Below are positions 7,282 through 31,359 of a DNA stretch of 64,000 bases, piece after piece. The stretch lies in contig NC_016027.1 in NCBI RefSeq assembly GCF_000182745.2, positions 437,001-501,000 on the forward strand. Direction: 5' to 3'. Under the pieces are notes generated by a model that was not told the DNA's origin, searched no databases, and was given only the letters and a program-made list of their open reading frames with translations. Source of the DNA: Komagataeibacter medellinensis NBRC 3288 (lineage in GTDB: Bacteria; Pseudomonadota; Alphaproteobacteria; Acetobacterales; Acetobacteraceae). Position numbers and translations under genes: made by a program. Numbering within the stretch: position 1 is the stretch's first letter; every line of letters starts with the position of its first letter.

Positions 7282-7890
7282 TCAGCCCAGCAGACGCTGG
7301 CGCAGATTGTCGATTGCCATGCCAAAGGCGGTCAGCAGGTCCGTATCCACACAGACTTCCCCGCCCGACAGGCGGATGAAGCCCTCGGTCATGGCGTTCT
7401 GGACCATGCCTTCAGAATGGACGATCAGGCCATCGGCATCTTCCGTCGTGCCACTGCCGCCATTGCCCGTCCTCTCCCGCAGAGAATCCCCCCATGCCTG
7501 TTTGCGGTATTGAGCCACCTTTTGCGGGTACGCGCGACCATCGACCGTATAACCAGCCAGTTTCTTGCCCTGGGCTGCCATGTAGCCGATCTCGACGGCG
7601 GTACCGGGGTCCATGTCGGCCGCGCGGCGGAAGGGGTCGAGACAGAACACGCCCGCGTCGCACCCGTCCATCAGGTCACGGTCCAGGCGGGCGATCAGCA
7701 GGCTGGTCTGCGCACCGGGTGCAAGGTCATCCACCTCGGCCTGCCCGTCAAAGGGGCAGACACCTTCCAGCCCGGCCTTGGTGCAGATGTCCTTCATAGC
7801 GCGGAACAGGTCTGCCGCGCCGGGCCGGAAGACCGTGTCGCCCGCAAGGTAGATGCGCGGTGCGCGGGGGGAGGGGCTTTGGGTGTTCAT
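7282..7890 (-). CDS. Nucleoside 2-deoxyribosyltransferase family protein
   Basis: The 202-residue protein matches nucleoside 2-deoxyribosyltransferases, which move 2-deoxyribose between bases or act as deoxynucleoside hydrolases. Visible motifs are IYLAGDTVFRPGA near the N-terminus, the LDPFRRAADMDPGTAVEIGYMAAQ region with the catalytic-type Asp/Glu (DPGTAVEIG), and a C-terminal MVQNAMTEGF segment resembling the subunit-swapping NxMxE tail. Start ATG 7890 is chosen over 7917 because homology begins at the IYLAGD strand and an AGGA sits upstream. It is divergent from the nucleoside hydrolase at 8041, and belongs by position to the nucleoside-catabolic island. Confidence 0.85.
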   Translation of the reverse strand: MNTQSPSPRAPRIYLAGDTVFRPGAADLFRAMKDICTKAGLEGVCPFDGQAEVDDLAPGAQTSLLIARLDRDLMDGCDAGVFCLDPFRRAADMDPGTAVEIGYMAAQGKKLAGYTVDGRAYPQKVAQYRKQAWGDSLRERTGNGGSGTTEDADGLIVHSEGMVQNAMTEGFIRLSGGEVCVDTDLLTAFGMAIDNLRQRLLG

Positions 7891-8040
7891 GATTGGGTTG
7901 TTCCTGTTATTTCTCATATCGAAACAATACTGGTCAATTCCGCCCGCACTGTATCGCTTTTTTGGCGTACGGATGGTCTAATCGGGTGCGACGCCAGTCG
8001 GCCGCAAGCGTGCGGGCGACTTTTCTCCAGTGGAGTATGC

Positions 8041-8970
8041 ATGAAGATCATTATCGATACCGATCCCGGGCAGGACGATGCCCTGACCATACTGCTGGCG
8101 CTGGCAAGCCCCGAGATCGAACTGCTGGGTGTGACCACGGTCGCGGGCAACGTATCGGTGGAACAGACCACCGAAAATGCACTCAAGACCCTTGACCTGG
8201 CGGGCCGGACAGACATACCCGTCCATGCTGGCGCCGACCGCCCGCTGCTGCGCCCTGCGGTCAATGCTACCCATGTGCATGGCCGCACGGGGTTTGAAGG
8301 GGTGGACCTGCCGCCCCCAAGCCGTGCCGCGAACCCGGGCCATGCGGTTGATTTCATCATTCGCACGGTCATGGAAAACCCACCCGGTTCGATCACGCTG
8401 TGTACCATCGGGCCGCTGACCAACATTGCGCTGGCACTTGCGCGCGAACCCGCGCTGCGTGAGCGTATTGGCCAGATCGTAATGATGGGCTGCGCGTTTT
8501 CCGAAGTAGGCAACATAACCCCCACGGGTGAGTTCAATGTTTATGTTGACCCCCATGCGGCCGAGATGGTGTTCGCATCCGGCATAAGGCTGGTTGTGTT
8601 CCCGCTTGATGTGACCCACCAGTTGCATACAAGTGCTGCCCGCCTTGCACGGATCGAGCAGATCCCCAACCGTATCGGCCCGGTGGTTGCGGCCTGGCTG
8701 CGCTTTGAAAAGCGCTTCGAGGCCACGAAATACGGCACCGATGGTGGTCCGCTGCATGACCCCAATACCGTGATCTGGCTGCTCAGGCCCGACCTGTATC
8801 ATGGCCGCGAGGTCAATGTGGAAATCGAGACCGGTAGCCCGCTGACCATGGGCATGAGCGTGGTTGACTGGTGGGGAATTAGCAGGAAGCCCAAGAACGC
8901 GCTCTTCATGCGCGATGTGGATGTAGAGGGTGTGTACGACCTGATTGTCGATCGCCTGTCCCGCCTGTAA
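8041..8970 (+). CDS. Ribonucleoside hydrolase (IunH/Rih family), copy 1
   Basis: The 309-residue enzyme begins with the diagnostic calcium- and ribose-binding motif IIIDTDPGQDDA at residues 3-14, followed by TVAGNVSVEQTTENA, a TIGPLTNIALAL segment, GEFNVYVDPHAA, and the C-terminal LHDPNTVIWLL motif. Family members split inosine, uridine or cytidine into base and ribose in the cytoplasm. ATG 8041 is correct: it has GGAG eight bases upstream and homology begins immediately; an open frame extends further upstream but carries no homology. The 150-bp divergent region shared with the deoxyribosyltransferase contains a TGGTCAA half site. Substrate preference cannot be read from sequence, but the context favours pyrimidine nucleosides. 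Confidence 0.92.
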   Translation: MKIIIDTDPGQDDALTILLALASPEIELLGVTTVAGNVSVEQTTENALKTLDLAGRTDIPVHAGADRPLLRPAVNATHVHGRTGFEGVDLPPPSRAANPGHAVDFIIRTVMENPPGSITLCTIGPLTNIALALAREPALRERIGQIVMMGCAFSEVGNITPTGEFNVYVDPHAAEMVFASGIRLVVFPLDVTHQLHTSAARLARIEQIPNRIGPVVAAWLRFEKRFEATKYGTDGGPLHDPNTVIWLLRPDLYHGREVNVEIETGSPLTMGMSVVDWWGISRKPKNALFMRDVDVEGVYDLIVDRLSRL

Positions 8971-9009
8971 TGCATGGGCCAGGGGCATGCGTGCCCCCGG
9001 CCTGCCACC

Positions 9010-10455
<1,446 letters not shown>

Positions 10456-10484: not shown

Positions 10485-10500
10485 CTGACCTGACGGTCAA
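10485..10500. promoter_or_regulatory. RutR-like operator in the hydA/NCS1 divergent promoter
   Basis: CTGACCTGACGGTCAA keeps TGACC-N4-GGTCAA of the E. coli RutR consensus TTGACCANNTGGTCAA. It lies 41 bp before the NCS1 ATG and 77 bp before hydA. Confidence 0.55.
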
Positions 10501-10541: not shown

Positions 10542-12044
10542 ATGCAAGGCCGTGCGGACCACATGGACAGCCACCTGGTGAACGAGGATCTGGCACCCGT
10601 ACGCACGCGGAGTTGGAAGTGGTTTGACTATGTCTCGCTATGGATGTCCAACGTGCACAGCATTGGTGGCTACATCACGGCGGGCAGCCTGTTTGCCATG
10701 GGCTTGCCGGCGGGCGACGTATTCATTGCGCTGGTGGCGGGCATTGTGATCATACAGGTGATCTGCAACCTGGTGGCACAGCCCAGCTTTGCTTCCGGTG
10801 CGCCCTATCCGGTCATGGCGCGCATGGCGTTTGGCGTGCGCGGCGCGATTATTCCGGGGCTGGTGCGCGGCATCATTGCAGTGGGCTGGTACGGTATCCA
10901 GACATGGCTTGCCTCCAACGCGGTGCTGGTGCTGCTTTTGCGGCAGTGGCCGGGTCTGGCGCCATGGGCGGATGTGCGCCTGCATGGCCTGCTGGGGTTA
11001 TCCGCGCTGGGGTGGGGGTGTTTTATGTTCCTGTGGGGGTTACAGGGGGCGGTGTTCTGGCGCGGGATGGAAACAATCCGGCGCTTCATCGACTGGGCCG
11101 GTCCCGTGATTTATGTGGTCATGATCGGGCTGGATGGCTGGCTCCTGTGGCGGGCAGGGGGGCATGTCTCGCTTGATGTGCTGGGTACCGTGCCGCAGGG
11201 CATGGGCGCGCGCATGCTGGGCATTCTCAATGCCACTGCGCTGATCGTGGCCTATTTCTCCCCCATTGCGCTTAATTTTGGTGATTTTTCGCGCTACGGC
11301 ATCAGTATGGGCGATATCAGGCGGGGCAATTTCTGGGGGCTGCCGGTCAACTTCATCGGTTTTTCAATTCTGACGCTGCTCACTATCGTGCTGACCCGCC
11401 CCGTCTTTGGTCGCCTGATGGTGGACCCGGTGGAAGTGGTGAGTCAGATCGACAATCCGACGGCGGTGGCCCTTGGCGTGCTGACATTCGTTACGGCTAC
11501 GGCGGGGGTCAATATCGTGGCCAATTTCGTCTCGGCCGCGTTTGATTTCTCCAACCTGGCACCGCATGCCATAAACTGGCGCAAAGGGGGGGCGATCGCG
11601 GCGGTGGGCGCGATCGTGGTCACGCCGTGGAACCTGTATGCCCGGCCCGACGTGATTCATCTGACACTGGATATACTGGGCACGTTCATCGGCCCGCTGA
11701 CCGGCGTGCTGCTGGCGGATTACTACATTACGCGCCGGGGAAAGATGGACACCAGCGCGCTGTACACAGCTAACCCGCAGGCACCTTATTGGTATCACGC
11801 CGGGATCAATCCCGTGGCCATGGCAGCCCTGCTGTTTTCAGTCCTGTGCGGTCTGGTGCTGGTATTCGGGCCAGTCTTTTCGCCTGTGCGCAACCTTTCA
11901 TGGTTTGTCGGTTTTTCATGTGCGATCGCAAGCCATGTCGTGCTGTCGCGCCTGTGGGGCCGGACCGGGCAGACGCCAGCGCTGGCCAGTCAGGGTAGGC
12001 CGGTCATTGTGCCTACGCCCTTCTCACCGCGCGGCGATGACTGA
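10542..12044 (+). CDS. NCS1-family nucleobase/hydantoin:cation symporter
   Basis: This 500-residue membrane protein has about twelve hydrophobic segments and the NCS1 signature WFDYVSLWMSNVHSIGGYI near residue 26, followed by GAPYPVMARMAFGVRGAI and NFGDFSRYG, typical of the HyuP/PucI/Mhp1 group. Members import uracil, allantoin or hydantoins with Na+ or H+ across the inner membrane. Its divergent partner is dihydropyrimidinase and a RutR-like site lies in the shared promoter, so uracil, thymine or dihydropyrimidines are the likely cargo (inference). ATG 10542 follows an AGGGAAA ribosome site; a second in-frame ATG lies seven codons downstream. Confidence 0.9.
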   Translation: MQGRADHMDSHLVNEDLAPVRTRSWKWFDYVSLWMSNVHSIGGYITAGSLFAMGLPAGDVFIALVAGIVIIQVICNLVAQPSFASGAPYPVMARMAFGVRGAIIPGLVRGIIAVGWYGIQTWLASNAVLVLLLRQWPGLAPWADVRLHGLLGLSALGWGCFMFLWGLQGAVFWRGMETIRRFIDWAGPVIYVVMIGLDGWLLWRAGGHVSLDVLGTVPQGMGARMLGILNATALIVAYFSPIALNFGDFSRYGISMGDIRRGNFWGLPVNFIGFSILTLLTIVLTRPVFGRLMVDPVEVVSQIDNPTAVALGVLTFVTATAGVNIVANFVSAAFDFSNLAPHAINWRKGGAIAAVGAIVVTPWNLYARPDVIHLTLDILGTFIGPLTGVLLADYYITRRGKMDTSALYTANPQAPYWYHAGINPVAMAALLFSVLCGLVLVFGPVFSPVRNLSWFVGFSCAIASHVVLSRLWGRTGQTPALASQGRPVIVPTPFSPRGDD

Positions 12045-12072: not shown

Positions 12073-13335
12073 TCATGGTGTCTGCCGCCTGCCCCCTGCT
12101 TCGGTCAGACAGGCCAGGAATGCCAGGGCGGGGAGCGCCATGCCAACCATGCACGCCCGTTCCCACCCGCCGCTGGCATAGGCCCATCCTCCCAGTGCCG
12201 AGCCGGTGGCCCCGCCCAGGAAGAAGATCGCCATATACAGCGCATTAAGCCGTGCGCGGTAGGCGGCGGAAAGAGAAAAGATCACCCGCTGCCCCAGCAC
12301 GAGGTTGGTCGTTACGCCAAAATCGATCAGGATTCCTTCCAGCCCCAGCGCCGCGATAAAAAACCGGGGGGCAACAAACCATGTCAGCGTAAAGGCCAGT
12401 GCCGTCAGCGCCATGGCCGCCAGTGTCGCACTCCAGATCCAGCCCCGGTCTGCCACACGCCCGGCAATGGGGGCGGCGATCGCTCCTGCCACGCCAACCA
12501 GCGCGAACAGCGCAATACCGCCCTGTGACACGCCAAAACGCGGGCTGGACAGCAGCAGGGGCGTTACCGTCCAGAACAGGCTGAAGGTTGCGAACAGGCA
12601 GGCATGGTAGAAGGCGCGGCGCTGCAGGGGCCGCGTGGTAGCGAACAGGCGGGCCATGGAAACCAGGAGCGGGCCATAACCCTGCGTGCTGGCACTCTGG
12701 TGGCGGGGCAGGCTCCAGCGCAGTAAGAAGGACAGCCCGAGCATGACCGTGGCGGACAGTACGAAAATCGCGCGCCATGAGGCAAGCTGCGCCACAAGGC
12801 TGGCCAGCGGGCGGGCCAGCATGATCCCCAGCATTAGCCCGCTCATAACGCTGCCCACCACCCGGCCACGGATGGCCAGTGGCGTCAGGTGAGTCACAAA
12901 CGTGACCAATACCTGTACTGCTACGGATAACAGTCCCACCAGCCACATGCCGACCAGAAACAGGGCCGGACGGGTGGCGAAAGCCACAACCAGCAGGGCC
13001 ACGGCCACGGCCCGCGTCATCCAGACCACAAGGCCACGGTTTTCCAGCAGATCACCCAAGGGTACGATCAGTAGCAGGCCCAGGCAGTACCCCATCTGGG
13101 TCACGGTCACGATGATGCCCGCCCACCGTGGCGCAAGGCCAAGGGAGGCGGCAATCGGGCCCGTCAGGGGTTGGGCGTAGTAGATGTTCGCCACAATCAG
13201 ACCGCAGGCTGCGGCAAAGACCATGATCAGGGGCCGGGCAATACCTGTAGCGGTATGCGGGGGGGTGCCGGGGGTGGGGAAAGTCATGTGGTGCGTGCTG
13301 TCATGGCTATCAATCCTGACTGAGTCTGTATGCAT
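12073..13335 (-). CDS. MFS transporter, DHA1-like
   Basis: The 420-residue protein has twelve predicted membrane segments and the major-facilitator loop motifs (for example GDLLENRGLVVWMTR between helices 2 and 3, and LAIRGRVVGSVMSGLMLGIM in helix 5). It belongs to the group of small-molecule/drug/sugar exporters (AraJ-like). It ends 28 bp after the convergent NCS1 gene and starts 48 bp downstream of the second nucleoside hydrolase, on the same strand, so these two are probably one operon. Export of nucleosides or bases is inference from position. ATG 13287 is an alternative start. Confidence 0.85.
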   Translation of the reverse strand: MHTDSVRIDSHDSTHHMTFPTPGTPPHTATGIARPLIMVFAAACGLIVANIYYAQPLTGPIAASLGLAPRWAGIIVTVTQMGYCLGLLLIVPLGDLLENRGLVVWMTRAVAVALLVVAFATRPALFLVGMWLVGLLSVAVQVLVTFVTHLTPLAIRGRVVGSVMSGLMLGIMLARPLASLVAQLASWRAIFVLSATVMLGLSFLLRWSLPRHQSASTQGYGPLLVSMARLFATTRPLQRRAFYHACLFATFSLFWTVTPLLLSSPRFGVSQGGIALFALVGVAGAIAAPIAGRVADRGWIWSATLAAMALTALAFTLTWFVAPRFFIAALGLEGILIDFGVTTNLVLGQRVIFSLSAAYRARLNALYMAIFFLGGATGSALGGWAYASGGWERACMVGMALPALAFLACLTEAGGRRQTP

Positions 13336-13383: not shown

Positions 13384-14325
13384 TTAGGGCAACGTGGCCA
13401 GCCGGGAGACCAGCAGGCTATAGAAAGCATCGGAATCGACATCGCGCAGGAAAAGGGCGTTGGGTTCCCTGTCCGTCACCCGCCACCAGTCAACCACGGT
13501 CATGCCGACCGACAGTTTGCCTTCAGTCTCGATGCCTACATTGACATGCCGCCCGCCAAAGAGATCCGGCGCAACCAGCCATGCAATCGTGCACGGGTCA
13601 TGCAGCGGCGCGCCCTTCCAGCCATATTTTACCAGGTCGAACCGTTCTGAATATGAAAGCATGTCCGCTGCCGCAATGGAGCAGCGGTTTGCATTGGCCC
13701 GCAGCGCTGCCAGCCGATCGGGCAGCCCAAGACATTTATGGGTGACATCCAGCGGCAGGACCACAAGCGGGATACCGGCACTGAACACGATGTCGGCCGC
13801 TTGAGGGTCGGCATAGATGTTGAACTCCGCCGCAGGCGTGATGTTGCCCAGTTCCGACCACGCGCCGCCCATCAGCACCACCTCGCGCAGGCGCCCGGCA
13901 ATGTCGGGCGCAATTGTGAGCGCCATGGCAAGGTCCGTAAGCGGGCCAAGCATGACCAGTGTCAGTTCCTGCTCCTGCGCCGCGCGGATGGCATCGACCA
14001 GATAGGTCACGCCACTTTCAGGTTGGACGGGCATGGTGGGCGGCACAGAGAGGTCGATACCATCAAGCCCGGTTGGCCCGTGCACATGCTCGGCCGTGGT
14101 CTGGGTTGGACGCAGGGGGCGTGCGGCGCCAGCAAAGACGGGTATGTCGGTGCGCCCGGCCATTTCCAGAACGCGGCGCGCGTTTTCCACCGTGCGCGTG
14201 CGCGGTACATTGCCCGCAACCGCAATAACGGCCTGCACTGCAATCTCGGGCGAGGCAAGGGCAAGGAAGAGCGCAACGGCATCGTCCTGTCCGGGGTCGG
14301 TATCTATGATGATCTTGCGTTTCAA
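13384..14325 (-). CDS. Ribonucleoside hydrolase (IunH/Rih family), copy 2
   Basis: The 313-residue paralogue of the enzyme at 8041 carries IIIDTDPGQDDAVA at residues 4-17, VAGNVPRTRTVENA, TLVMLGPLTDLAMAL, AEFNIYADPQAA and LHDPCTIAWL. It therefore retains the calcium/ribose site. The two copies differ widely, suggesting different substrates rather than a recent duplication. Upstream at 14349-14367 there is a CCGGTC...GACCGG inverted repeat that could be an operator. It is followed 48 bp later by the MFS gene. Confidence 0.92.
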   Translation of the reverse strand: MKRKIIIDTDPGQDDAVALFLALASPEIAVQAVIAVAGNVPRTRTVENARRVLEMAGRTDIPVFAGAARPLRPTQTTAEHVHGPTGLDGIDLSVPPTMPVQPESGVTYLVDAIRAAQEQELTLVMLGPLTDLAMALTIAPDIAGRLREVVLMGGAWSELGNITPAAEFNIYADPQAADIVFSAGIPLVVLPLDVTHKCLGLPDRLAALRANANRCSIAAADMLSYSERFDLVKYGWKGAPLHDPCTIAWLVAPDLFGGRHVNVGIETEGKLSVGMTVVDWWRVTDREPNALFLRDVDSDAFYSLLVSRLATLP

Positions 14326-14889
14326 AAATCACGACTTTCCTGGTTGGGCCGGTCGGCCACTGACCGGCTGCCGACTGCTCGGCCGGGCCTACGTCAGATA
14401 TCGACCGTCATGGTTTGTAGGACATGCGGCACGAATGATGGCACGGGCCATGCTCGTACCGTATCCATGTCGCATGGCGGACATTGTGTTCGCACAGGCA
14501 ATATTATGGCAATGCCCTGTTTGGACGTAATGCAGGACAGGGGTAATTTTGCCACGTTTGGTAACATGCACGCCGTTGCAGGCCGGGTGAACCGGGCTGT
14601 GCGGGCATGTCGGCATGTGCAGCGGCGGAGAAAGATGTTCTGCCCATGAAATAATTTTGTAATATATTGATAATAATGGATAAAAGTTAAAACAATTTTT
14701 TGATGTCCATGCTGTCAATACAGTGTGCGCGGTTCGGATTTCGTTGGTTTTGTTATAATGTGTTATTTATGCAACATTTTCCAAAACCTGACTGGATGGT
14801 TAGAATTTTGTTGCGACTCAGGAAAGATTTATATTATCATAATCTTATCGAATACGTGGGAAACGGGGCGGAATGAAGTAAAAACAAAG
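14326..14889. other. Gene-free AT-rich spacer upstream of the TonB receptor
   Basis: About 560 bp between divergent genes. The right half is far more AT-rich than the flanks. It holds the inverted repeat at 14349-14367 and a degenerate RutR-like palindrome (TGACTGGATGGTTA, about 14790-14803). No convincing coding sequence was seen. Confidence 0.5.
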
Positions 14890-14956: not shown

Positions 14957-17314
14957 ATGACTCAGATCTATTTGCGATCTCTGGTCAGTGCCATCGCAAT
15001 ATCGACAGTTTTTTCAAGTTACGCTGCCAGTGCCCAGAGTGCTCACACCACTACGGCAGCACGCAAGACACCTGTCCGACACGCAGGTACGGCCCCTGCC
15101 GCGCATACCCATACGGCACCCCTGCACCAGATGGCGTCAAGCCAGCCTGAAACCCTTGCCGTCCATGTCTCGCGCCATGCGCGTGATGGTGGCGGCGGCA
15201 TGATGCGTGTTGAAACCGAACCCCATGCGGTGCAGAGCGTGGGCAAGCAGTATATCGAGATGCGCAGCCCCGCCTCTACCGGGCTGGACCTGATCCAGAA
15301 CCTGCCCAGCGTCAGCATCGCCATGCCGGACCCGGATGGCTTCAAGGGCGGGTCCATCTTTATCCGTGGCCTGACCGATGCCGATATGGGCCTGATGCTC
15401 GATGGCGCACCGGCCTCGCTTGCGTCCTACCTGCAGCAGAATGTTGATTCCGAGAATATCGAAAGCGTCAACGTCATGCCCGGCAGTTCGCAGGTTGACA
15501 TGCCAACGGCAAACGCCGCCGCAGGCACGCTGGATGAGCGCACGATCACACCCAGCGAAAAGCGCGGCGGCAGCGTCGATTTTTCGTATGGCACCAACAA
15601 TTTCTCGCGTGAGTTCATTCGCTTGCAGTCCGGCTATATCGGTCATTCGGGCGTGCGGACCTATGTATCGTTCTCCAACGCGCATGCGCGGCAGTGGATG
15701 GGCGGCGGCATCAACGAGCGCAAGCACGTTGATTTCGGCCTGCAAAAGGATTTCGACAACGGCTCTTTCATCAAGCTGTTCACGTCGTGGCACAACTCGA
15801 TGTTCACCATCGACAATTATGCGACAGCCTCGGAATTCTATGACTACAAGCACAATGGTGTCGGGTACAACCGCTCCAACAGTCAGGCTGCCGGTGGCAA
15901 TTACTGGAAGGGCAATCTTGATTCGTGGAACCAGTTTTTTGTCAGCGCGCCTGTGCATGTCGTAGTCAACAAGAAGCTTGATTTCGATATGACACCGTAC
16001 CTGAGCACCGGCTTTGGCTGGGATGGTTCTTCCGCTGGCACGGTGGGTGCCACATCGGCATGTAGTGGCGGATGTTACTACAATAACGGCACGCAGGCAG
16101 CCAGCAATCAACTGCTGAGCACCTATTACGCGCAGGGCTGGTCGCCCGATGTGGGCGTGGTGGCCAAGGTCAACTACAGGATCGACCGCCATAACCGCTT
16201 TACGTTTGGGTACTGGTATGAAAACAACTCGGTTTCCGAGTTCTCGCCCACCATGGCGACCATGGCTTCAGGCCGTAACCCCAAGACCGACAATTCGGCT
16301 GCCATGCTGTACAACATGGATGGGCAAAAACTGGTCAGCACGGTCCATTCCGGTTATGAGCTGAACTCCTTCTTCCTGCAGGACAGCGCCAAGTACCTGA
16401 ACGACAAGCTGACGGTCAATGCGGGCTTCAAGTTCGTCATGTCCAACTACTGGGACCGGGCAAGCGGACTGCTGGCAGGCTCCGGCTCGCGCCTGGGTGA
16501 GAACACGACCGCCCCCCTGCCGCACCTTGCCATTGCCTACCGCTTCAATGCACATCACCAGATCTATATGAATGCGGAAGGTGATTTCCGCCAGCCGTCT
16601 CCCTCAGCCCTGCCGGTTGGTGTGACCACGCTGCCCAAGAACCAGTATTCCATTACCGAACAGCTTGGTTACCGCTTCAATAACAAGTGGCTGATTGCCG
16701 ATATCTCGCTGTTCAATTCCAGCATCACCAACCGCCTGCTTTCAGTATACATGCCATCCACGCAGTATGAGACCGTCAATGCCGGTAACGAGACCATCCG
16801 TGGTTTCGATGCCATGATTGCGGGCCGATCCTTCCATCATTTCAGCCCCTATGCATCGGTTGAATACCTGTATGGCCGGATGGATTCCAACATCGCGTAT
16901 GGAGATTCCTACCTGCCGACCAAGGGCAAGCAGTCCATCAATACCCCGCGTGTTATGGCGAATTTTGGCCTGACCTATGCCAACCAGGGATTCTTCAGCA
17001 ATTTCAGCCTGCACTATACCGGCCCGCAGTCAGTTACCATGGTGGGTGACGAGCGCATGCCTGGTTACGTGACCGATACGCTGGCGGTTGGCTATCACTT
17101 CAAGCCGTTATCCTTTGCCAAGACGCCGACCATCCGCCTGAACTTCGCCAACCTGACCGGTTCCATCGTGCGTGTGGGCACGACTGGTGTCGCCACCAAT
17201 ATGAATCAAGTGATGCTGCTCAACGGTCACGATACCGCTGCGGCCGGTGCGGGTGCCTCTTTCTACGTCCTGCCCCGCTTCTCCATGACGGGCACGATTT
17301 CCACCGACTTCTAA
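14957..17314 (+). CDS. TonB-dependent outer-membrane receptor
   Basis: The 785-residue protein has a signal peptide with likely cleavage after ASA at residue 26, a low-complexity Ala/Thr/His linker, then a plug domain (residues about 85-210: IEMRSPASTGLDLIQNLPSV, GGSIFIRGLTDADMGLMLDG) and a C-terminal beta barrel with many aromatic strands ending in an aromatic residue (Phe), as barrel-assembly signals do. Such receptors import scarce or large solutes using TonB energy. No siderophore signature is evident. It sits alone between nucleoside hydrolase 2 and nupC, so a nucleoside, nucleobase or oligonucleotide cargo is proposed from context only. A strong terminator follows. Confidence 0.92.
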   Translation: MTQIYLRSLVSAIAISTVFSSYAASAQSAHTTTAARKTPVRHAGTAPAAHTHTAPLHQMASSQPETLAVHVSRHARDGGGGMMRVETEPHAVQSVGKQYIEMRSPASTGLDLIQNLPSVSIAMPDPDGFKGGSIFIRGLTDADMGLMLDGAPASLASYLQQNVDSENIESVNVMPGSSQVDMPTANAAAGTLDERTITPSEKRGGSVDFSYGTNNFSREFIRLQSGYIGHSGVRTYVSFSNAHARQWMGGGINERKHVDFGLQKDFDNGSFIKLFTSWHNSMFTIDNYATASEFYDYKHNGVGYNRSNSQAAGGNYWKGNLDSWNQFFVSAPVHVVVNKKLDFDMTPYLSTGFGWDGSSAGTVGATSACSGGCYYNNGTQAASNQLLSTYYAQGWSPDVGVVAKVNYRIDRHNRFTFGYWYENNSVSEFSPTMATMASGRNPKTDNSAAMLYNMDGQKLVSTVHSGYELNSFFLQDSAKYLNDKLTVNAGFKFVMSNYWDRASGLLAGSGSRLGENTTAPLPHLAIAYRFNAHHQIYMNAEGDFRQPSPSALPVGVTTLPKNQYSITEQLGYRFNNKWLIADISLFNSSITNRLLSVYMPSTQYETVNAGNETIRGFDAMIAGRSFHHFSPYASVEYLYGRMDSNIAYGDSYLPTKGKQSINTPRVMANFGLTYANQGFFSNFSLHYTGPQSVTMVGDERMPGYVTDTLAVGYHFKPLSFAKTPTIRLNFANLTGSIVRVGTTGVATNMNQVMLLNGHDTAAAGAGASFYVLPRFSMTGTISTDF

Positions 17315-21110: not shown

Positions 21111-21223
21111 TGTGTGCTCCATGATTGGAGCGAAACCGTAACAAATGTTTGGACGGCCCACAATAGTTTATATATCGGTCAAGAAATGAATTTTGCTACC
21201 CCGCCGGGGTGGGTGCGGACAGG

Positions 21224-23432: not shown

Positions 23433-23519
23433 GGAAACCGGGTGCGAAATACGATGCACAAATGAATCGTCCCGGTCATGGGTGCCGGGGACGTATTTCA
23501 TCCAGCACAGGATTGCACG

Positions 23520-24869
23520 ATGGTTCAGGATTCAGAAAAGACCGCTCTCCTTCGTAACAAGCAAGATGGGGTGTACTGGCAGCCATACACCGCCAACCGC
23601 CTGCTGCGCGCCAATATGGAACCGCGCACCATGGTCAGTGCCAAAGGTGCCTATTACACCAATAGCGAAGGCACAAAGCTGTTCGATACGCTGTCGGGCC
23701 TGTGGTGTACGCCGCTGGGCCACGCACACCCGCGTATTGTCGAAGCGGTGCGCAAGCAGGCGGAAACACTGGACTTCGCGCCGTCTTTCCAGTTGACCCA
23801 CCCCGGCGCCATCTCGTTGGCCGAGCGGATTGCCGACCTGGCTCCCGATAATCTGAACCATGTGTTTTTCGCCAATTCCGGGTCGGAAGCGGCGGATACG
23901 GCAATCAAGGTGGCGCTGGGCTATCACCGCCTCAAGGGCGAGGCCAGCCGCTTCCGCATGATCGGGCGCGAGCGTGGCTACCACGGCGTGGGCCTGGGTG
24001 GCATGTCGGTTGGTGGCATCGTGCCCAACCGCAAGATGTTTGCTCCGATCATGATGAACGGCGTGGACCACCTGCGCCATACCTACGAGCCGAGCCACAT
24101 GGCCTTTACCCGCGGCCAGCCCACATGGGGCACCCACCGTGCGGAAGACCTGGTGCGGCTGGTAACCCTGCATGATGCCTCGACCATTGCTGCCGTGATC
24201 GTGGAGCCGGTGCAGGGCTCGACCGGCGTGGTCGTCCCGCCCGTGGGTTACCTGCAGCGCCTGCGCGAGATCTGTACCGCCAATGGCATCCTGCTGATCT
24301 TTGATGAAGTCATTACCGGCTTTGGCCGCATGGGCGAGAACTTTGGCGCGCAGCGCTTTGGCGTCACGCCCGACATCATCACATTTGCCAAAGCGGTGAC
24401 CAACGGCATCGTACCAATGGGCGGCGTGATCGTGACGGACGAGATCTACAACACCTTCATGACCGGGCCGGAAAGTGCGATCGAGTTCTGCCACGGCTAC
24501 ACCTATTCCGGCCACCCCATGGCGGCGGCGGTGGGCCATGTGGTGCTGGACGTCATGCGCGAGGAAGGTCTGGTCGAGCGCGTGCGCGTGCTTGAACCGG
24601 TGCTGGAAGAAGCGATGCACGGCCTGAAGGACCTGGACGTGATTGCCGATATCCGCAACATCGGGTTGACGGCCGCCTTCGACATGAAACCCGCTGAAGG
24701 CAAGCCCGGCGCGCGTGGCCTTGCCCTGTTCGAGGCAGGGCTGCGTAATGGCCTGCTGCTGCGCTGCACGGGCGATACGGTGTCCTTCGGGCCTCCGTTC
24801 ATCTCTACCGAACAGGAACTGCGCGACATGGCCGCCACGCTGCGCAGGCTGATCACCGAAGTATGCTGA
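23520..24869 (+). CDS. Omega-amino acid (beta-alanine):pyruvate aminotransferase
   Basis: The 449-residue class III aminotransferase has the family N-terminus (YWQPYTANRLLRAN), FANSGSEAADTAIKVALGYH for PLP phosphate binding, LIFDEVITGFGRMG with the PLP Asp, and the Schiff-base lysine at residue 291 in TFAKAVTNG. This subfamily transfers the amino group of beta-alanine to pyruvate giving malonate semialdehyde and alanine. ATG 23520 has AGGA upstream; an ATG 42 bases earlier lies outside the homology. It is followed 45 bp later by the decarboxylase-like tautomerase, as expected if its product is malonate semialdehyde. Confidence 0.88.
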   Translation: MVQDSEKTALLRNKQDGVYWQPYTANRLLRANMEPRTMVSAKGAYYTNSEGTKLFDTLSGLWCTPLGHAHPRIVEAVRKQAETLDFAPSFQLTHPGAISLAERIADLAPDNLNHVFFANSGSEAADTAIKVALGYHRLKGEASRFRMIGRERGYHGVGLGGMSVGGIVPNRKMFAPIMMNGVDHLRHTYEPSHMAFTRGQPTWGTHRAEDLVRLVTLHDASTIAAVIVEPVQGSTGVVVPPVGYLQRLREICTANGILLIFDEVITGFGRMGENFGAQRFGVTPDIITFAKAVTNGIVPMGGVIVTDEIYNTFMTGPESAIEFCHGYTYSGHPMAAAVGHVVLDVMREEGLVERVRVLEPVLEEAMHGLKDLDVIADIRNIGLTAAFDMKPAEGKPGARGLALFEAGLRNGLLLRCTGDTVSFGPPFISTEQELRDMAATLRRLITEVC

Positions 24870-24914: not shown

Positions 24915-25328
24915 ATGCCGTTAATGCATTTTCACATGGTCAAGGGTGCGCGCACGCCGGACGAACTGCGCGGTTTCCTTGATGCCGCCCACGATGCGAT
25001 GGTCGCGGCCTTCAAGGTGCCCGGCCGTGACCGCTACCAGCTCGTATCCGAGCATGAGCCGACCCACATGATCGTGGAAGATACCGGGCTGGACATTCCC
25101 CGTACGCCCAAGGTCGTGCTGCTTCAGGTTTTCTCGCGCCCGCGTGGCAAGGAGCAGATTGCCGCATTCTACAAGCTGCTGGCCGAGACGCTGGAGGCCC
25201 GCACCGGCCTGGCACCTTCCGACCTGATGGTGTCCGTTGTTGAAAACAACGACGAGCACTGGAGCTTCGGCCACGGCCGCGCACAGTTCCTGACCGGTGA
25301 GCTGCCGCTGCCGGGTGCGAAGGCCTGA
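24915..25328 (+). CDS. Malonate-semialdehyde-decarboxylase-like tautomerase
   Basis: The 137-residue protein belongs to the tautomerase superfamily with N-terminal proline after Met removal. With Pro as residue 1, Asp38 (in VPGRDRYQ), Arg74 and Arg76 (in FSRPRG), Trp115 and Phe117 (in HWSFGHG) line up, one residue displaced, with Pro1, Asp37, Arg73, Arg75, Trp114 and Phe116 of Pseudomonas pavonaceae malonate semialdehyde decarboxylase. That enzyme makes acetaldehyde and CO2. The gene directly follows the beta-alanine transaminase whose product is malonate semialdehyde. Another tautomerase activity cannot be excluded without assay. Confidence 0.83.
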   Translation: MPLMHFHMVKGARTPDELRGFLDAAHDAMVAAFKVPGRDRYQLVSEHEPTHMIVEDTGLDIPRTPKVVLLQVFSRPRGKEQIAAFYKLLAETLEARTGLAPSDLMVSVVENNDEHWSFGHGRAQFLTGELPLPGAKA

Positions 25329-25339
25329 CCTGCCATTTT

Positions 25340-25364
25340 CCGGATTCCTGTAACGGGAATCCGG
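25340..25364 (+). terminator. Hairpin after the transaminase-tautomerase pair
   Basis: CCGGATTCC and GGAATCCGG form a perfect 9-bp stem with a 7-base loop, followed by a weak T-rich run (GATTTCATT). It separates this pair from preT. Confidence 0.6.
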
Positions 25365-25463
25365 GATTTCATTGCTGTGTGAATAAATAACGGCAGGTTT
25401 GTTGTTTCTTATAAGAAATGTTTTTATATGGCGCGGCGTAATGGTAATTCCGCCCTAAAAAAC

Positions 25464-25479
25464 CTGATCATATGGTCAG
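25464..25479. promoter_or_regulatory. RutR-like operator upstream of preT
   Basis: CTGATCATATGGTCAG differs from the TGACCANNTGGTCA core of the E. coli RutR site at one base. It lies about 66 bp before the preT ATG. Confidence 0.65.
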
Positions 25480-25545: not shown

Positions 25546-26898
25546 ATGCCGCAGGGTCCCGATATAGCGCCCGGTCGTCTTAGCGATACCGAGCTTGCGC
25601 TTAATTTTTCCGATGCTCACCCGCCGCTTACACATGCCCAGGCCGTGGTTGAAGCAGATCGCTGTTTCTACTGTTATGATGCGCCCTGCATCGAAGCCTG
25701 CCCCACGGGCATCGACATCCCGCGCTTCATCCGTGCCATTGCCACGGATAACATGGCGGGATCGGCAAGGGTCATCCTGGAATCCAATATCCTTGGTGGC
25801 TCATGCGCCCGCGTCTGCCCCACTGAGATCCTGTGTGAGCAGAAATGCGTGCACAATACCCGTGAGGAAGGCCAGCCCATCCGCATCGGCATGCTCCAGC
25901 GCCATGCTACGGACTGGCAGATGGACCATGGAGGCCAGCCGTTTACGCGCGCGCCGTCAACAGGCAGGCGCATTGCCATTGTCGGTGCGGGGCCTGCCGG
26001 CCTTGCCTGTGCGCACCGCCTGGCCATGCACGGCCATGACGTGATGATCTTCGACCGCCATGCGCGTGCCGGCGGCCTGAACGAATATGGCGTGGCTGCC
26101 TATAAACTGGCTGATGACTTTGCCCAGCGCGAGGTTGACTTCCTGCTGGCCATCGGCGGCATTTCCTTTGCCGGTGGCGAGGCGCTGGGCCGTGACATGA
26201 CGGTTGCCAGCCTGCGGCGTGAATATGATGCCGTTTTCCTGGCCGTGGGCCTTGCGGGCGTGCGCTCGCTGGGGATCGAGGGCGAAGATCTTGATGGCGT
26301 GATGGATGCGGTCGATTTCATCGAAGGGCTGCGTTCGGTCAACAAGCAGACCGTACCGGTGGGTCGCCGCGTTGTGGTGATCGGCGGCGGCAATACGGCG
26401 GTCGATGCCGCGGTGCAGGCCCGCAGGCTGGGTGCGGACGAGGTGACCCTCGTCTACCGCCGTGGCTACGAGAACATGTCCGCCACCCCCGTGGAGCGCG
26501 AATGGGCGCAGACCAATGGCGTGACCGTAAAGCTGTGGGCATCGCCCGTGCGGCTTGTGGCGCGTGATGGCGCGCTTGCAGGCATCGAGTTCGCCCGTGG
26601 CGCCAGGGGGGCGGATGGCCGCGCCACGTATGACGCGCAGAACACCTTTGTGCAGGATGCGGACATGGTGCTCAAGGCGGTGGGCCAGACCTTCCTGCCT
26701 GATCCGCTCAATGGCGAGAGCATTGCCCTGGCGGGTGGCCGGATCGTGGTGGATGAAAACGGCCAGACCACCATGCCGGGTGTTTATGCCGGGGGTGACT
26801 GCACCCCGGGCGAAGATCTGACCGTAGCGGCCGTGCGTGACGGGCGTAATGCGGCGGAAGCAATCCATGCGGCCTTTACGGCTGCGGCGGCGAAGTAA
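25546..26898 (+). CDS. preT: NAD-dependent dihydropyrimidine dehydrogenase, PreT subunit
   Basis: The 450-residue subunit carries the electron-input half of dihydropyrimidine dehydrogenase. The N-terminal domain has cysteine clusters for Fe-S centres (CFYCYDAPCIEACPTGIDIP near residue 40, and GGSCARVCPTEILCEQKC near 85). It is followed by an FAD motif (RRIAIVGAGPAGLACAHRL), a second dinucleotide fold for NAD(P)H (RRVVVIGGGNTAVDAAVQAR), and the C-terminal FAD motif GVYAGGDCTPGEDLTVAAVRDG with its ATG-like turn. It starts 11 bp-coupled operon preT-preA. With PreA it interconverts uracil/thymine and dihydro forms using NADH. Confidence 0.95.
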   Translation: MPQGPDIAPGRLSDTELALNFSDAHPPLTHAQAVVEADRCFYCYDAPCIEACPTGIDIPRFIRAIATDNMAGSARVILESNILGGSCARVCPTEILCEQKCVHNTREEGQPIRIGMLQRHATDWQMDHGGQPFTRAPSTGRRIAIVGAGPAGLACAHRLAMHGHDVMIFDRHARAGGLNEYGVAAYKLADDFAQREVDFLLAIGGISFAGGEALGRDMTVASLRREYDAVFLAVGLAGVRSLGIEGEDLDGVMDAVDFIEGLRSVNKQTVPVGRRVVVIGGGNTAVDAAVQARRLGADEVTLVYRRGYENMSATPVEREWAQTNGVTVKLWASPVRLVARDGALAGIEFARGARGADGRATYDAQNTFVQDADMVLKAVGQTFLPDPLNGESIALAGGRIVVDENGQTTMPGVYAGGDCTPGEDLTVAAVRDGRNAAEAIHAAFTAAAAK

Positions 26899-26909: not shown

Positions 26910-28184
26910 ATGGCTGATCTACGCACGAATTTTGTTGGTATCCGCTCGCCCAATCCGTTCTGGCTTGCCTCGGCGCCGCCCACGGACAAGGAATACAATG
27001 TCCGCCGTGCGTTCGAGGCGGGCTGGGGTGGCGTAGTCTGGAAAACGCTGGGGGAAGACCCGCCGGTGGTCAATGTCAGCTCCCGTTACGGATCACTGAA
27101 CTATAATGGCACCCGTATGATCGGGCTCAACAACATCGAGCTGATTTCCGATCGTCCGCTGGCCACGAACATTGCCGAAATCAAGTCCGTCAAGCGCGAT
27201 TATCCTGACCGTGCGGTCGTGGTCAGCCTGATGGTACCCTGCGTGGAGGAGAGCTGGAAGGCTATCCTGCCCATCGTGGAGGAAACCGGTGCCGATGGCA
27301 TCGAGCTGAACTTCGGCTGCCCGCATGGCATGTCCGAGCGCAACATGGGTGCCGCCGTAGGCCAGGTGCCCGAATATGTGGAAATGGTCACGCGGTGGTG
27401 CAAGCAGAACACCCGCATGCCCGTTATCGTCAAGCTTACGCCCAACATCACCAACGTACTCATGCCCGCCCGTGCGGCGCGGCGGGGCGGGGCGGATGCG
27501 GTCTCGCTGATCAACACCATCCAGTCGGTCATCGGCGTGGATCTGGACACAATGGCGCCCATGCCGACGGTTGATGGCAAGGGCACCCATGGCGGCTACT
27601 GTGGCCCGGCGGTCAAGCCCATCGCGCTGCGCATGATTGGTGACATTGCCCGTGACCCTGAAATGGCGGGGCTGCCCATCTCCGGTATTGGCGGTATCGG
27701 CTCGTGGCGCGATGCCGCGGAATTCCTTGCCATGGGGGCCACCACGCTACAGGTCTGCACGGCGGCCATGCATTACGGCTTCCGCATTGTGGAAGACATG
27801 ACCGATGGCCTGTCCGCATGGATGGACCAGAAGGGCTATGCCACCATCAATGACGTAACCGGACGCGCGGTCGAACGCTTCGTGCCATGGAACCAGTTGA
27901 ACATGAAGTTCAACACCATCGCCAGGATTGACCAGGACGCCTGCATCAAGTGTGGCCTGTGTCACATCGCGTGCGAGGATACGTCTCACCAAGCGATTGC
28001 CAAGACCAAGGTGGAAGGCGAGCGCCATTACGAAGTGATTGATGAGGAATGCGTGGGCTGTAACCTGTGTGCGCATGTCTGCCCTGTTGATGACTGTATT
28101 ACCATGCAGCCCCAGCCGGTTGATGGTGTCCTGACATGGCCCGAACACCCCAACAACCCGCACCGCGTGGCAGTGGAATCATAA
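26910..28184 (+). CDS. preA: NAD-dependent dihydropyrimidine dehydrogenase, PreA subunit
   Basis: The 424-residue catalytic subunit has an FMN barrel related to dihydroorotate dehydrogenase (NPFWLASAPPTDKEYN, ELNFGCPHGMSERNMG, VIVKLTPNITNV, GIGGIGSWRDAAEFLAMGA) and a C-terminal ferredoxin-like tail with two CxxCxxxC clusters (CIKCGLCHIAC and CVGCNLCAHVC). Full length matches E. coli PreA. It follows preT by 11 bp and precedes the carbamoyl hydrolase by 40 bp, so all three are one operon under the RutR-like site. Confidence 0.96.
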   Translation: MADLRTNFVGIRSPNPFWLASAPPTDKEYNVRRAFEAGWGGVVWKTLGEDPPVVNVSSRYGSLNYNGTRMIGLNNIELISDRPLATNIAEIKSVKRDYPDRAVVVSLMVPCVEESWKAILPIVEETGADGIELNFGCPHGMSERNMGAAVGQVPEYVEMVTRWCKQNTRMPVIVKLTPNITNVLMPARAARRGGADAVSLINTIQSVIGVDLDTMAPMPTVDGKGTHGGYCGPAVKPIALRMIGDIARDPEMAGLPISGIGGIGSWRDAAEFLAMGATTLQVCTAAMHYGFRIVEDMTDGLSAWMDQKGYATINDVTGRAVERFVPWNQLNMKFNTIARIDQDACIKCGLCHIACEDTSHQAIAKTKVEGERHYEVIDEECVGCNLCAHVCPVDDCITMQPQPVDGVLTWPEHPNNPHRVAVES

Positions 28185-28224
28185 CGCCTGCGCAAGCATG
28201 GTGGCCCAGCATGGAAGGAAGCCT

Positions 28225-29496
28225 ATGACACAGCAAAACACCGCCCCCCATGGCAGCAATATCGGCATTGATGGGCAGGCCCTGTGGGCGGACCTGATGG
28301 AAACCGCCAAATTCGGTGGCACGCCCAAGGGTGGCGTCCGTCGTCTGACGCTGACGGCGGAAGACAAACAGGTGCGCGACTGGTTTGTGCGCACCTGCGA
28401 ATCACTTGGCTGCACGGTCACGTTTGATTCCATGGGCAACCAGTTTGCCCGCCGTGCGGGGCTTGATGACAGCCTGCCGCCTATCACCATCGGCAGCCAC
28501 CTCGATACGCAGCCCACGGGCGGCAAGTATGATGGCATCCTTGGCGTGCTGGGCGGGCTTTCGGTGCTGCGCGCACTACAGCGTTCGGGCTACGTGACCC
28601 GTCACCCGATCGAGGTGATCAACTGGACGAACGAGGAGGGCTCGCGCTTCACGCCACCCATGATGTGCTCGGGCGTGTTTACCGGCGTGTTTACCGAACA
28701 GGAAGTGCTGGACAAGCGCGACCGTGCGGGCAAGCGCTTCGGGGATGAGCTGGAGGCCATCGGCTACCGTGGCAGCGAGCCGTGCGGCAAGCACCCGGTT
28801 ACCGCCTATTTCGAGCTGCATATCGAACAGGGGCCGATCCTTGAGGCCGAGCACAAGACCATCGGCATCGTGACCGGCGTGCAGGGTGCGCGGTGGTATG
28901 AGGTGACGGTAAAGGGCAAGGACGCCCATGCCGGTTCCACCCCCATGCCCATGCGTCATGATGCGCTGCTGGCATCGGCGCGGATGATCGAGGCAGTCAG
29001 CCAGGTGGCCTGTGCGCACGCGCCCACCGCCGTTGGCACCGTGGGCCTGATCGAGAACCGCCCCAACAGCAACAACGTGGTGCCCGGCGAGGTGTTCTTC
29101 ACCATCGACATGCGCGATCCCGATGACGCGGTCGTAAGCCAGATGGAAGATGAACTGTACAGCCAACTGCCCGAGATCGCGCGCCGCAGCAATGTTGAGA
29201 TGGAGATCGTGCGGATCTGGGATGCTCCTGCCGTGCACTTCAATCCCGAATGTATTGGCATGGTCGAGGCAGCGGCGGCGGAAAGCGGCTACGCTGCCCG
29301 GCGCATCGTATCGGGGCCGGGACATGATGCTGCCTATATGGCGCATGTTGCGCCCACGACCATGATCTTCGTACCCTGCGAAGACGGCCTGAGCCATAAC
29401 GAGGCCGAAAGCATTACCGAACAGGATGCGGCAGCGGGCGCGGGCGTGCTGCTCAAGGCCATCATGAAGGCCGATGCGGCATTTAACGCGGGCTGA
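28225..29496 (+). CDS. Beta-ureidopropionase-type Zn-dependent amidase (HyuC/AmaB family)
   Basis: The 423-residue M20-like hydrolase removes the carbamoyl group from N-carbamoyl-beta-alanine or N-carbamoyl amino acids. The metal ligands are in place: His in IGSHLDTQPTGGKYDGILGV with the bridging Asp, the catalytic Glu pair in NWTNEEGSRF, His in FELHIEQGPILE, and the last His in GLSHNEAE. A dimerisation domain follows VTVKGKDAHAGSTPM. ATG 28225 has GGAAGG upstream and is favoured over an earlier start at 28198. As third gene of the preTA operon it supplies beta-alanine, CO2 and ammonia. Confidence 0.92.
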   Translation: MTQQNTAPHGSNIGIDGQALWADLMETAKFGGTPKGGVRRLTLTAEDKQVRDWFVRTCESLGCTVTFDSMGNQFARRAGLDDSLPPITIGSHLDTQPTGGKYDGILGVLGGLSVLRALQRSGYVTRHPIEVINWTNEEGSRFTPPMMCSGVFTGVFTEQEVLDKRDRAGKRFGDELEAIGYRGSEPCGKHPVTAYFELHIEQGPILEAEHKTIGIVTGVQGARWYEVTVKGKDAHAGSTPMPMRHDALLASARMIEAVSQVACAHAPTAVGTVGLIENRPNSNNVVPGEVFFTIDMRDPDDAVVSQMEDELYSQLPEIARRSNVEMEIVRIWDAPAVHFNPECIGMVEAAAAESGYAARRIVSGPGHDAAYMAHVAPTTMIFVPCEDGLSHNEAESITEQDAAAGAGVLLKAIMKADAAFNAG

Positions 29497-29531
29497 AAAG
29501 CTGTCTGGCATAACAGGCATTTTTGGGGGGC

Positions 29532-29671: not shown

Positions 29672-29691
29672 GTTGCCTGTACGGCCCGTGT

Positions 29692-29880: not shown

Positions 29881-30023
29881 CGGCACAGGCCATGGTGGCG
29901 CTTGAACGGCGCGGGGCGGATGTCTGGACGATATACAACAATACGACCTTTGGTGCCGTAACATGCAACGCGCTGGAACTGGCAGGTGCTTCTGGCATGG
30001 ATGGTTGCACCACGGATCATTAA
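29874..30023 (+). pseudogene. C-terminal remnant resembling DUF72
   Basis: On the plus strand, CPAQAMVALERRGADVWTIY followed by a NNTTFGAVTCNALEL segment resembles the end of DUF72 (YecE-type) proteins, which finish with a D-V-W-x-I-F-D-N-T motif. Nothing of the TIM barrel is found upstream, and the fragment abuts the SDR remnant tail to tail. The call rests on one short motif. Confidence 0.35.
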
Positions 30024-30075
30024 TGCCAAAAGCCATCCTTTTTCAGAACGGGCCGGCCTGCCCCCTGCGCAGCCA

Positions 30076-31311
30076 TCAGGGCAGGATGATGCCTGCAATC
30101 GCCGCACTCATAAGATTAGACAGCATACCCCCCAGCACGGCGCGCGCACTTTTGCGGGCGACTTCCTCGCGGCGTTCGGGGCACTGGCTGCCAAAGGCGG
30201 CCACCAGCAGGCCGATCGAACTGAGATTGGCAAAACCGCATAGCGCCAGTGATGCAATGGCTCCCGCCCGGTGCGACAGCCGCCCCGCCTGGATATCCGG
30301 CCCCAGATGCAGGTAGGCGACAAACTCGTTCAGCACCACCTTCAACCCCAGCACCGAACCCACGGCACTGCATTCCGACGCTGGCACTCCCAGCAGCCAC
30401 GCCAGCGGGGCGAAGATGAACCCCATCAGGTATTCCAGCGACAGCCCCTGCATTCCAACCGCCCCGCCCGCCGCCTGTAACATACCATTGGCCAACGCGA
30501 TCAGCCCGATACAGGCCACCAGCATGGCAGCGACCGCCATGGCGGTGTGCGCCCCTTTCAGCGCGCCTTCCATCACCGCTTCAAAAAAGGCACGGTGATA
30601 GGCACCGCCTGCCGCACTGACCGGGCTGACCGGGCTGTCGGGCAGGCGTGGCTCCAGCATCTTGGCAAACAGCAGCCCGCCCGGAACCGCCATGAAGGAT
30701 GCCGCCACCAGATATTCCGCCGGCACACCCAGGCCGAAATAACCGATCAGCGTGGCGCCCGAGATCGATGCCGTGCCACTGCACAGGGTGCTGAACAGTT
30801 CCGTCGTGTTCATGGTGGCAAGGTAGGGACCAAGAGCGACCGGCAGTTCGCTCTGACCTACGAAAATGGTGATGATGGCGCCAAAGGATTCCACGGGCGA
30901 TGTGCCCAGCAGCCGCTGCAGCCCCAGCCCCAGCACCCGGGCAAAGGCCTGCATGATGCCGAAATGGTAGAGAATGGCGATCAGCGCGCTGACATAGACC
31001 AGCGAGGGCAGGACCTGAAAGGCGAAGATGTACGAACCATCAGGAAAGATCTCATGCATGCGCGGGCCCACCAGCGCGCCGAACAGAAAGCGCCCGCCCT
31101 CGCTACCATAGGAGAGCACGCCCGTTACCGCGCCCGCCATGGCGCGCAGCAGCGCCTGGCCCGCTGGCACGCGCAGCACCAGCACCCCGATGGCGCCCTG
31201 CAGCAGCAGGCATGACAGGATGATGCGCGCGTTGATGCGCCTGCGGTCGGTGGAGAAGAGAATACCGATACATATCAATAACATGATTCCAAAATAGCCA
31301 CGGATATGCAT
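30076..31311 (-). CDS. nupC: NupC-type concentrative nucleoside transporter, copy 2
   Basis: The 411-residue paralogue of the permease at 17752 has GQSELPVALGPYLATM, LCSGTASISGATLIGYFGLGV, LVAASFMAVPGGLLFAKML, KVVLNEFVAYLHLG and CGFANLSSIGLLVAAFGSQCP, so all CNT signatures are kept. The two copies diverge throughout, suggesting different nucleoside preferences. A RutR-like site lies about 33 bp upstream of its start, so it is probably co-regulated with preTA although it is transcribed separately. It marks the right edge of the catabolic island. Confidence 0.93.
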   Translation of the reverse strand: MHIRGYFGIMLLICIGILFSTDRRRINARIILSCLLLQGAIGVLVLRVPAGQALLRAMAGAVTGVLSYGSEGGRFLFGALVGPRMHEIFPDGSYIFAFQVLPSLVYVSALIAILYHFGIMQAFARVLGLGLQRLLGTSPVESFGAIITIFVGQSELPVALGPYLATMNTTELFSTLCSGTASISGATLIGYFGLGVPAEYLVAASFMAVPGGLLFAKMLEPRLPDSPVSPVSAAGGAYHRAFFEAVMEGALKGAHTAMAVAAMLVACIGLIALANGMLQAAGGAVGMQGLSLEYLMGFIFAPLAWLLGVPASECSAVGSVLGLKVVLNEFVAYLHLGPDIQAGRLSHRAGAIASLALCGFANLSSIGLLVAAFGSQCPERREEVARKSARAVLGGMLSNLMSAAIAGIILP

Positions 31312-31343
31312 AGGGAACCCTTCAGGATGCAGATTGGTATTTT

Positions 31344-31359
31344 CTGACCATATAGTTAT
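31344..31359. promoter_or_regulatory. RutR-like operator upstream of nupC copy 2
   Basis: CTGACCATATAGTTAT keeps TGACCA-N2-T-x-GT-x-A of the RutR core (two mismatches in 12 defined bases). It lies 33 bp upstream of the start at 31311. Confidence 0.5.

Follow-up and report, generated by a model that had tools for sequence, protein, structure and literature searches.

The reductive degradation of pyrimidines was reportedly described by Yin et al. in 2019, with PydD and PydE and with 3-hydroxypropionate as the end product: dihydropyrimidine dehydrogenase, dihydropyrimidinase and ureidopropionase convert uracil to β-alanine, a β-alanine aminotransferase follows, and the malonic semialdehyde is the substrate of a reductase. 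Zhu et al. in 2020 are said to have traced uracil to acetyl-CoA in Bacillus megaterium; the steps down to malonic semialdehyde are shared, and a malonate semialdehyde dehydrogenase (MSDH) closes the route. The gene cluster analysed here lies at positions 7282–31359 of a 64,000-nucleotide stretch of Komagataeibacter medellinensis NBRC 3288 (NC_016027.1, positions 437,001–501,000), referred to as the window. It encodes candidates for the same steps, but a predicted malonate semialdehyde decarboxylase (MSAD) stands where the reductase acts in the former pathway, and no MSDH above the family cut-off was found in this genome. The original prediction for this DNA stated that known reductive pathways end at acetyl-CoA. 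This is incomplete, since both PydE, a malonic semialdehyde reductase, and the dehydrogenase MSDH are named in published Pyd clusters (PMC7332683).

The tautomerase encoded at 24915–25328 (+ strand) aligns over 129 columns with 2aag, the crystal structure of the assayed MSAD of Pseudomonas pavonaceae, at 55% identity, and has the same catalytic residues and proposed reaction. MSAD is included in the breakdown pathway of 1,3-dichloropropene (PMC10606566). Malonate semialdehyde is derived from a soil fumigant in that pathway, whereas it would be derived from β-alanine here. In myo-inositol (Iol) catabolism, a different upstream pathway, malonate semialdehyde is yielded by aldol cleavage; the standard route ends at IolA, which makes acetyl-CoA, but relatives of the source strain have a close MSAD beside their Iol genes.

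Proposed conversion of β-alanine to acetaldehyde

Genome comparison, which carries most weight, the catalytic residues and the lack of a (methyl)malonate semialdehyde dehydrogenase (MMSDH) of the usual family lend good support to the predicted path from β-alanine via malonate semialdehyde to acetaldehyde. It is likely that the cluster represents a third end of the reductive pyrimidine pathway, at which malonate semialdehyde would yield acetaldehyde and CO2. Nucleosides and pseudouridine would be converted to uracil by the uptake and base-release functions of the cluster, and uracil to β-alanine by four proteins called, like the other genes of the window, from NCBIfam and Pfam family scans. These are PreT (25546–26898, +; PF14691 and PF07992) and PreA (26910–28184, +; NF006183, 724 bits against a cut-off of 335), the FAD/Fe-S and catalytic subunits of dihydropyrimidine dehydrogenase, a dihydropyrimidinase (9010–10407, −; TIGR02033, 597 bits against 393), and a candidate N-carbamoyl-β-alanine amidohydrolase (carbamoylase, HydC; 28198–29496, +; TIGR01879, 445 bits against 204). 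AptA, a class III aminotransferase of the β-alanine:pyruvate type (23478–24869, +; NF052567, 631 bits against 500), would transfer the amino group of β-alanine to pyruvate and leave malonate semialdehyde. MSAD would then release acetaldehyde and CO2, without CoA or NAD at the decarboxylation step. We infer these substrates and a flux along this route. PreA, the dihydropyrimidinase, the carbamoylase and AptA all passed curated NCBIfam cut-offs. The active-site cysteine of PreA lies in ELNFGCPHGM, which aligns with ELNLSCPHGM in 1gt8, an animal enzyme of solved structure. The relatives of the carbamoylase in the Protein Data Bank (PDB) include the N-carbamoyl-β-alanine amidohydrolase 8c46 (E 7.5e-123), and the best PDB match of AptA is the β-alanine–pyruvate transaminase 4b98 (E 6.4e-137).

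A further match of the window tautomerase is the FG41 enzyme (E 4.8e-27), and the Tautomerase_2 model has no other match in the genome. In MSAD, Pro1 serves as the general acid and two arginines hold the carboxylate. Pro1, Asp37, Arg73 and Arg75 (2aag numbering), the last three of which we presume to be diagnostic of MSAD, are all kept. Across 18 aligned sequences the corresponding residues (Pro2 after the initial Met, equivalent to Pro1, and D39, R75 and R77) are invariant. The closest named MSAD among the best 80 of 172 matching loci is that of K. rhaeticus, with 93% identity.

The source genome (3.5 Mb, completeness 99.98%) encodes eight aldehyde dehydrogenases, none of which lies within the cluster. 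None of the eight passed the cut-off of the MMSDH family (TIGR01722), the best reaching 292 bits against 448.5. As far as this family goes, the claim that malonate semialdehyde dehydrogenase is lacking, made for the window, thus holds genome-wide, and the possibility that such an enzyme resides elsewhere in the genome and carries the flux found no support within the same limit. No MMSDH was found at E ≤ 1e-100 in the 14 genomes of the same genus.

Acetaldehyde would be oxidised to acetate by general aldehyde dehydrogenases. Its oxidation at the membrane, as the original prediction proposed, is plausible for the genus, but did not gain support from the genome. The stronger molybdenum hydroxylase match, considered as a membrane aldehyde dehydrogenase, was rejected because it is the xanthine dehydrogenase XdhAB. 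A second molybdenum hydroxylase, a molybdopterin-binding protein of 793 aa encoded near an enolase gene (C3:680000–693000 of the source genome, G000; L213, 5723–8104), matched no NCBIfam model at E ≤ 1e-80. A soluble candidate is present, an ExaC-like acetaldehyde dehydrogenase with 890.6 bits, just under the cut-off of 900. No AcsA acetyl-CoA synthetase above the cut-off was found in the genome (best 431 of 725 bits).

Genomic context of the decarboxylase in relatives

Co-occurrence was counted in a family sample of 397 genomes, with MSAD scored at 100 bits or more (our own threshold) and PreA above its cut-off. MSAD was present in 58 genomes and PreA in 78, and 32 genomes had both (Fisher test, 3.4e-11, kinship ignored); at E ≤ 0.001 there were 85 MSAD matches, against the 58 genomes at 100 bits or more. 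MMSDH was scored in these counts at E ≤ 1e-100, which selected 152 of the 397 genomes, 149 of which also pass the family cut-off. Among the MMSDH-free genomes, MSAD occurs in 13 of the 24 that have PreA and in 18 of the 221 that lack it (kinship ignored).

Gene neighbourhoods were surveyed at the best 80 of the 172 matching loci with thresholds of our own (PreA, 60% identity; AptA, 45% within 700 bases; IolD, 45%, or IolCJ, 60%). Long flanks were taken as 40 stretches from 38 of the 58 MSAD genomes, the source genome being represented by the window and 19 genomes being left out; a further 20 stretches for PreA and one for MMSDH were also included. The search for the same gene set in related genomes that the original prediction had called for revealed PreA within 10 kb of MSAD at 10 of the 80 named loci, in varied gene orders: K. 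rhaeticus and K. melaceti; Acetobacter oeni, A. fallax, A. orientalis, A. musti and A. pasteurianus LMG 1262; and Gluconobacter cadivus, G. roseus and G. wancherniae. Among the 32 genomes with both genes, six have them within 10 kb (G000, G324, G354, G242, G378 and G022), and the loci of K. rhaeticus, K. melaceti, A. pasteurianus and G. wancherniae are not independent of G354, G324, G242 and G378. In A. orientalis, preT-preA-hydC-aptA-MSAD lie on one strand behind a RutR-type box, the aligned parts being ~30 to 115 bases apart. A. oeni, A. fallax, A. musti and G022 have preT-preA-hydC-MSAD on one strand, followed by a RutR-type gene. When 81 MSADs were placed on a tree, 6 changes were needed to account for the PreA-linked label (11 rows, the window among them), and starred branches force at least 4 of these; the tree is built on few columns and has many open forks, and some of the rows scored as unlinked are near contig ends. 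It is therefore probable that MSAD and PreA became linked, or lost their linkage, on several occasions, which is what selection for a shared pathway would lead one to expect.

A further 34 loci of the 80 have AptA next to MSAD but no PreA, and a divergent MocR gene is frequently present as well; they belong to Komagataeibacter, Acetobacter, Asaia, Gluconobacter, Gluconacetobacter and Methylobacterium. The arrangement MocR-aptA-MSAD is kept in Methylobacterium (L189, L190, L194, L195 and L198), outside the acetic acid bacteria. myo-Inositol genes accompany MSAD at 13 of the 80 loci; in Gluconacetobacter tumulicola, MSAD adjoins IolCJ (NF047869, 731 bits, cut-off 600) and IolD (TIGR04377, 906 bits, cut-off 715). 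Four of the 13 (L169 and L175–L177) were assigned by IolD at 48–50%, with no IolCJ in the stretch. The 13 loci (L163, L167, L169, L170, L175–L177, L180, L181, L184, L185, L187 and L188) belong to Asaia, Swaminathania, Brytella, Gluconacetobacter and Komagataeibacter, and the neighbours are IolD, mostly IolCJ, a sugar porter and a Gfo/Idh/MocA protein. In total, 57 of the 80 MSAD loci sit with AptA, Pyd or Iol genes, which places MSAD with a pathway that makes its proposed substrate.

For comparison, 17 stretches around more distant tautomerases (29–36% identity) were examined, in 16 of which the tautomerase was re-found. PreA, a close AptA and close Iol genes were found in none of the 17. The weak matches were to AptA (30%, L221), MMSDH (30%, L223), MocR (35%, L229) and IolD (23%, L231). 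This control is a fair one for specificity and is not matched.

Several observations weigh against MSAD as the end of the pyrimidine pathway. The 78 PreA genomes comprise 13 with MSAD only, 35 with MMSDH only, 19 with both and 11 with neither, so that MSAD is no strict partner of PreA; the last 11 indicate that other ends, or a halt at β-alanine, also occur. PreA is missing from 26 MSAD genomes out of 58, and the 32 that have both genes include 26 in which the two do not come within 10 kb of each other, so the commoner unit is aptA-MSAD. None of the neighbours sought was found at 23 of the 80 loci, an upper bound because several stretches end near MSAD (L165, L186, L193, L202, L204, L211 and others). 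The control is imperfect in that only 6 of the 17 control genomes have PreA and that the tautomerase was not re-found in L230. Side activities also occur in MSAD-family proteins. Finally, a RutE-family reductase above its cut-off is encoded in the source genome, and a branch to 3-hydroxypropionate may therefore operate.

Malonate semialdehyde could in that case be reduced mainly to 3-hydroxypropionate by a RutE- or PydE-type enzyme, with MSAD only clearing the remainder of a toxic aldehyde. A malonic semialdehyde reductase is indeed named in Pyd clusters (PMC7332683). However, the RutE-family gene, from the only family covered by our reductase search, lies ~1.7 Mb into the contig, flanked by NifU- and TsaD-like genes and unlinked to the cluster. 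The family is present in 373 of the 397 genomes and so does not track pyrimidine use, and it is MSAD itself that stands in the gene string in several relatives. We consider such a division of labour unlikely. It is less likely still that one of the eight aldehyde dehydrogenases makes acetyl-CoA or malonate from malonate semialdehyde while MSAD uses another substrate. One of them is above the cut-off of the SSADH model and one above that of NF007497, in a scan that used the matched parts of the eight proteins, with one rerun whole. Their best MMSDH score of 292 bits and their location outside the cluster speak against this role, as does the fact that MSAD accompanies two different malonate-semialdehyde-producing pathways in relatives. 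The tautomerase might also be another enzyme of its superfamily that came to lie beside AptA and Pyd genes by accident. Each tautomerase subgroup consists mostly of uncharacterised proteins (PMC5818174), and the 23 loci without sought neighbours fit this view. Against it, AptA, Pyd or Iol neighbours occur at 57 of 80 loci but in 0 of 17 control stretches, and the protein keeps all four catalytic residues at 55% identity to 2aag, which makes an accidental linkage very improbable.

Regulatory sites and further genes of the cluster

Predicted sites of RutR type were searched for with the pattern CTGACC-N4-GGTCAG, a palindrome that we take to resemble the Escherichia coli RutR site, allowing at most 3 mismatches in 12 positions. 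Palindromes were found between the dihydropyrimidinase and NCS1 genes (10485–10500, CTGACCTGACGGTCAA), upstream of the TonB receptor gene (14788–14803, CTGACTGGATGGTTAG, 2 of 12 mismatches; first picked up as a repeat pair) and upstream of preT (25464–25479, CTGATCATATGGTCAG). A possible further site upstream of nupC2 (31344–31359) has 3 mismatches and is weak alone. The 16-base pattern is matched a third time in the window at 10555, in the first part of the NCS1 gene. Of the loci surveyed, 29 of 31 had a box ahead of preT, which lay at −77 to −93 in 27 of the 31, and 9 of 10 had one ahead of NCS1; at the same threshold, 333 of 3000 random 200-base windows had one. The counts were 11 of 26 for dihydropyrimidinase (the L144 row being left out), 2 of 30 for HydC, 2 of 7 for MocR, 1 of 2 for the TonB receptor, 1 of 4 for NupC1, 3 of 4 for NupC2, 1 of 12 for aptA and 0 of 12 for MSAD. 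The palindromes are thus predicted operators that mark pyrimidine promoters, and the regulator itself scores under the RutR cut-off. The TonB receptor may take part in the uptake of pyrimidines, as the site ahead of its gene suggests.

Because the box is all but absent upstream of aptA and MSAD, the AptA-MSAD pair of the window is probably a separate unit. It would be controlled by the MocR-type protein encoded divergently from aptA (21968–23374, −; PF00392 and PF00155), whose counterpart flanks aptA-MSAD in many relatives. The unit would be closed by a terminator-like hairpin with a 13-pair stem after MSAD (25338–25366, +). Such hairpins are weak evidence alone, as 7 were found against 6.6 expected in shuffled sequence. 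The genes probably constitute one route in at least two regulatory units, and induction by uracil and β-alanine would be expected. The single chain of the original prediction therefore probably holds as one pathway, but not as one unit: two units appear to adjoin, with the hairpin and a RutR-type box between them, and AptA-MSAD occurs in many relatives without pyrimidine genes.

The family scans located every gene that had been named from the sequence, although an MFS transporter and the RutR- and MocR-type regulators had been overlooked. At the left end are a nucleoside 2-deoxyribosyltransferase family protein (7282–7917, −; PF05014, 104.9 bits against 28.8) and nucleoside hydrolase 1 (8041–8970, +; PF01156, 343 bits), the start of which is an internal ATG of a longer reading frame (7417–8970), picked from the translation. 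The frame at 7978–8988 (−) was rejected as a gene, being antisense to nucleoside hydrolase 1 and without a family match. Beyond the dihydropyrimidinase gene lie those for an NCS1 nucleobase transporter (10542–12044, +; PF02133, 287 bits; TIGR00800, 279 bits against 353) and for the MFS transporter (12073–13335, −), which was considered as a further NupC and rejected on its PF07690 match. A RihA-like nucleoside hydrolase 2 (13384–14325, −; PF01156, 326 bits; RihA model, 320 bits against 433) and the TonB-dependent receptor (14957–17314, +; PF07715 plug domain) follow. NupC nucleoside transporters 1 (17752–18999, −) and 2 (30076–31311, −) each have three Pfam domains above the cut-off, with TIGR00804 scores of 423 and 404 bits against 442. 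Pseudouridine would be handled by a PsuG-like pseudouridine-5-phosphate glycosidase (19033–20055, −; PF04227, 435 bits) and a PsuK-like PfkB kinase (19968–21161, −; PF00294 and PF13412; PsuK model, 128 bits against 540). The kinase carries an N-terminal winged helix-turn-helix and may for that reason act in regulation besides phosphorylation. The RutR-type TetR regulator is encoded at 21224–21922 (−; PF08362 and PF00440; RutR model, 158 bits against 368). As PsuK, RihA, RutR, NCS1 and both NupC proteins are under their curated NCBIfam cut-offs, these names hold at the family level only.

The term island, applied to the cluster in the original prediction, is apt in the sense of a patchy distribution within the genus but in no other. 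PreA is above its cut-off in 3 of 14 same-genus genomes, the source genome included, and the cluster has decayed in another genome of the genus, G281 (C1:575000–603000; L214 and L215). Both cluster flanks are present there, and between them nucleoside hydrolase 1, NCS1, the carbamoylase and NupC2 are kept at 83–89%. MSAD and PreT are reduced to fragments (residues 74–129 and 1–34, respectively), and no match to PreA, AptA or dihydropyrimidinase was found between the flanks. A second MSAD, 53% identical, is encoded elsewhere in G281. The left flank protein is kept (at 89%) in only 2 of 18 other genomes of the genus, and a general empty site is thus not demonstrated. Elsewhere in the window, G+C content is lower at 40001–42000 (45.5%) and 56001–58000 (55.1%) than in most of the window.

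Implications for acetic acid bacteria

No paper on an MSAD or acetaldehyde end of the reductive pyrimidine pathway was found among the matches listed from the open-access literature, subscription journals being largely outside the search. The pathway itself would be a variation on a known one, and the novelty would lie in the wider natural role of MSAD. We lean towards the view that acetic acid bacteria natively use MSAD as the last enzyme for the malonate semialdehyde of both pyrimidine/β-alanine and myo-inositol catabolism. It would replace the CoA-dependent dehydrogenase and supply acetaldehyde to bacteria that specialise in its oxidation to acetate. If this is true, the MSAD family, which has been characterised mainly through the breakdown of a man-made soil fumigant, would gain a natural role in central catabolism, and a tautomerase subgroup of xenobiotic breakdown would be offered a natural function. 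The textbook nucleobase pathway would gain a third chemical outcome, which bears on the recovery of nitrogen from nucleic acids in cellulose- and vinegar-making bacteria.

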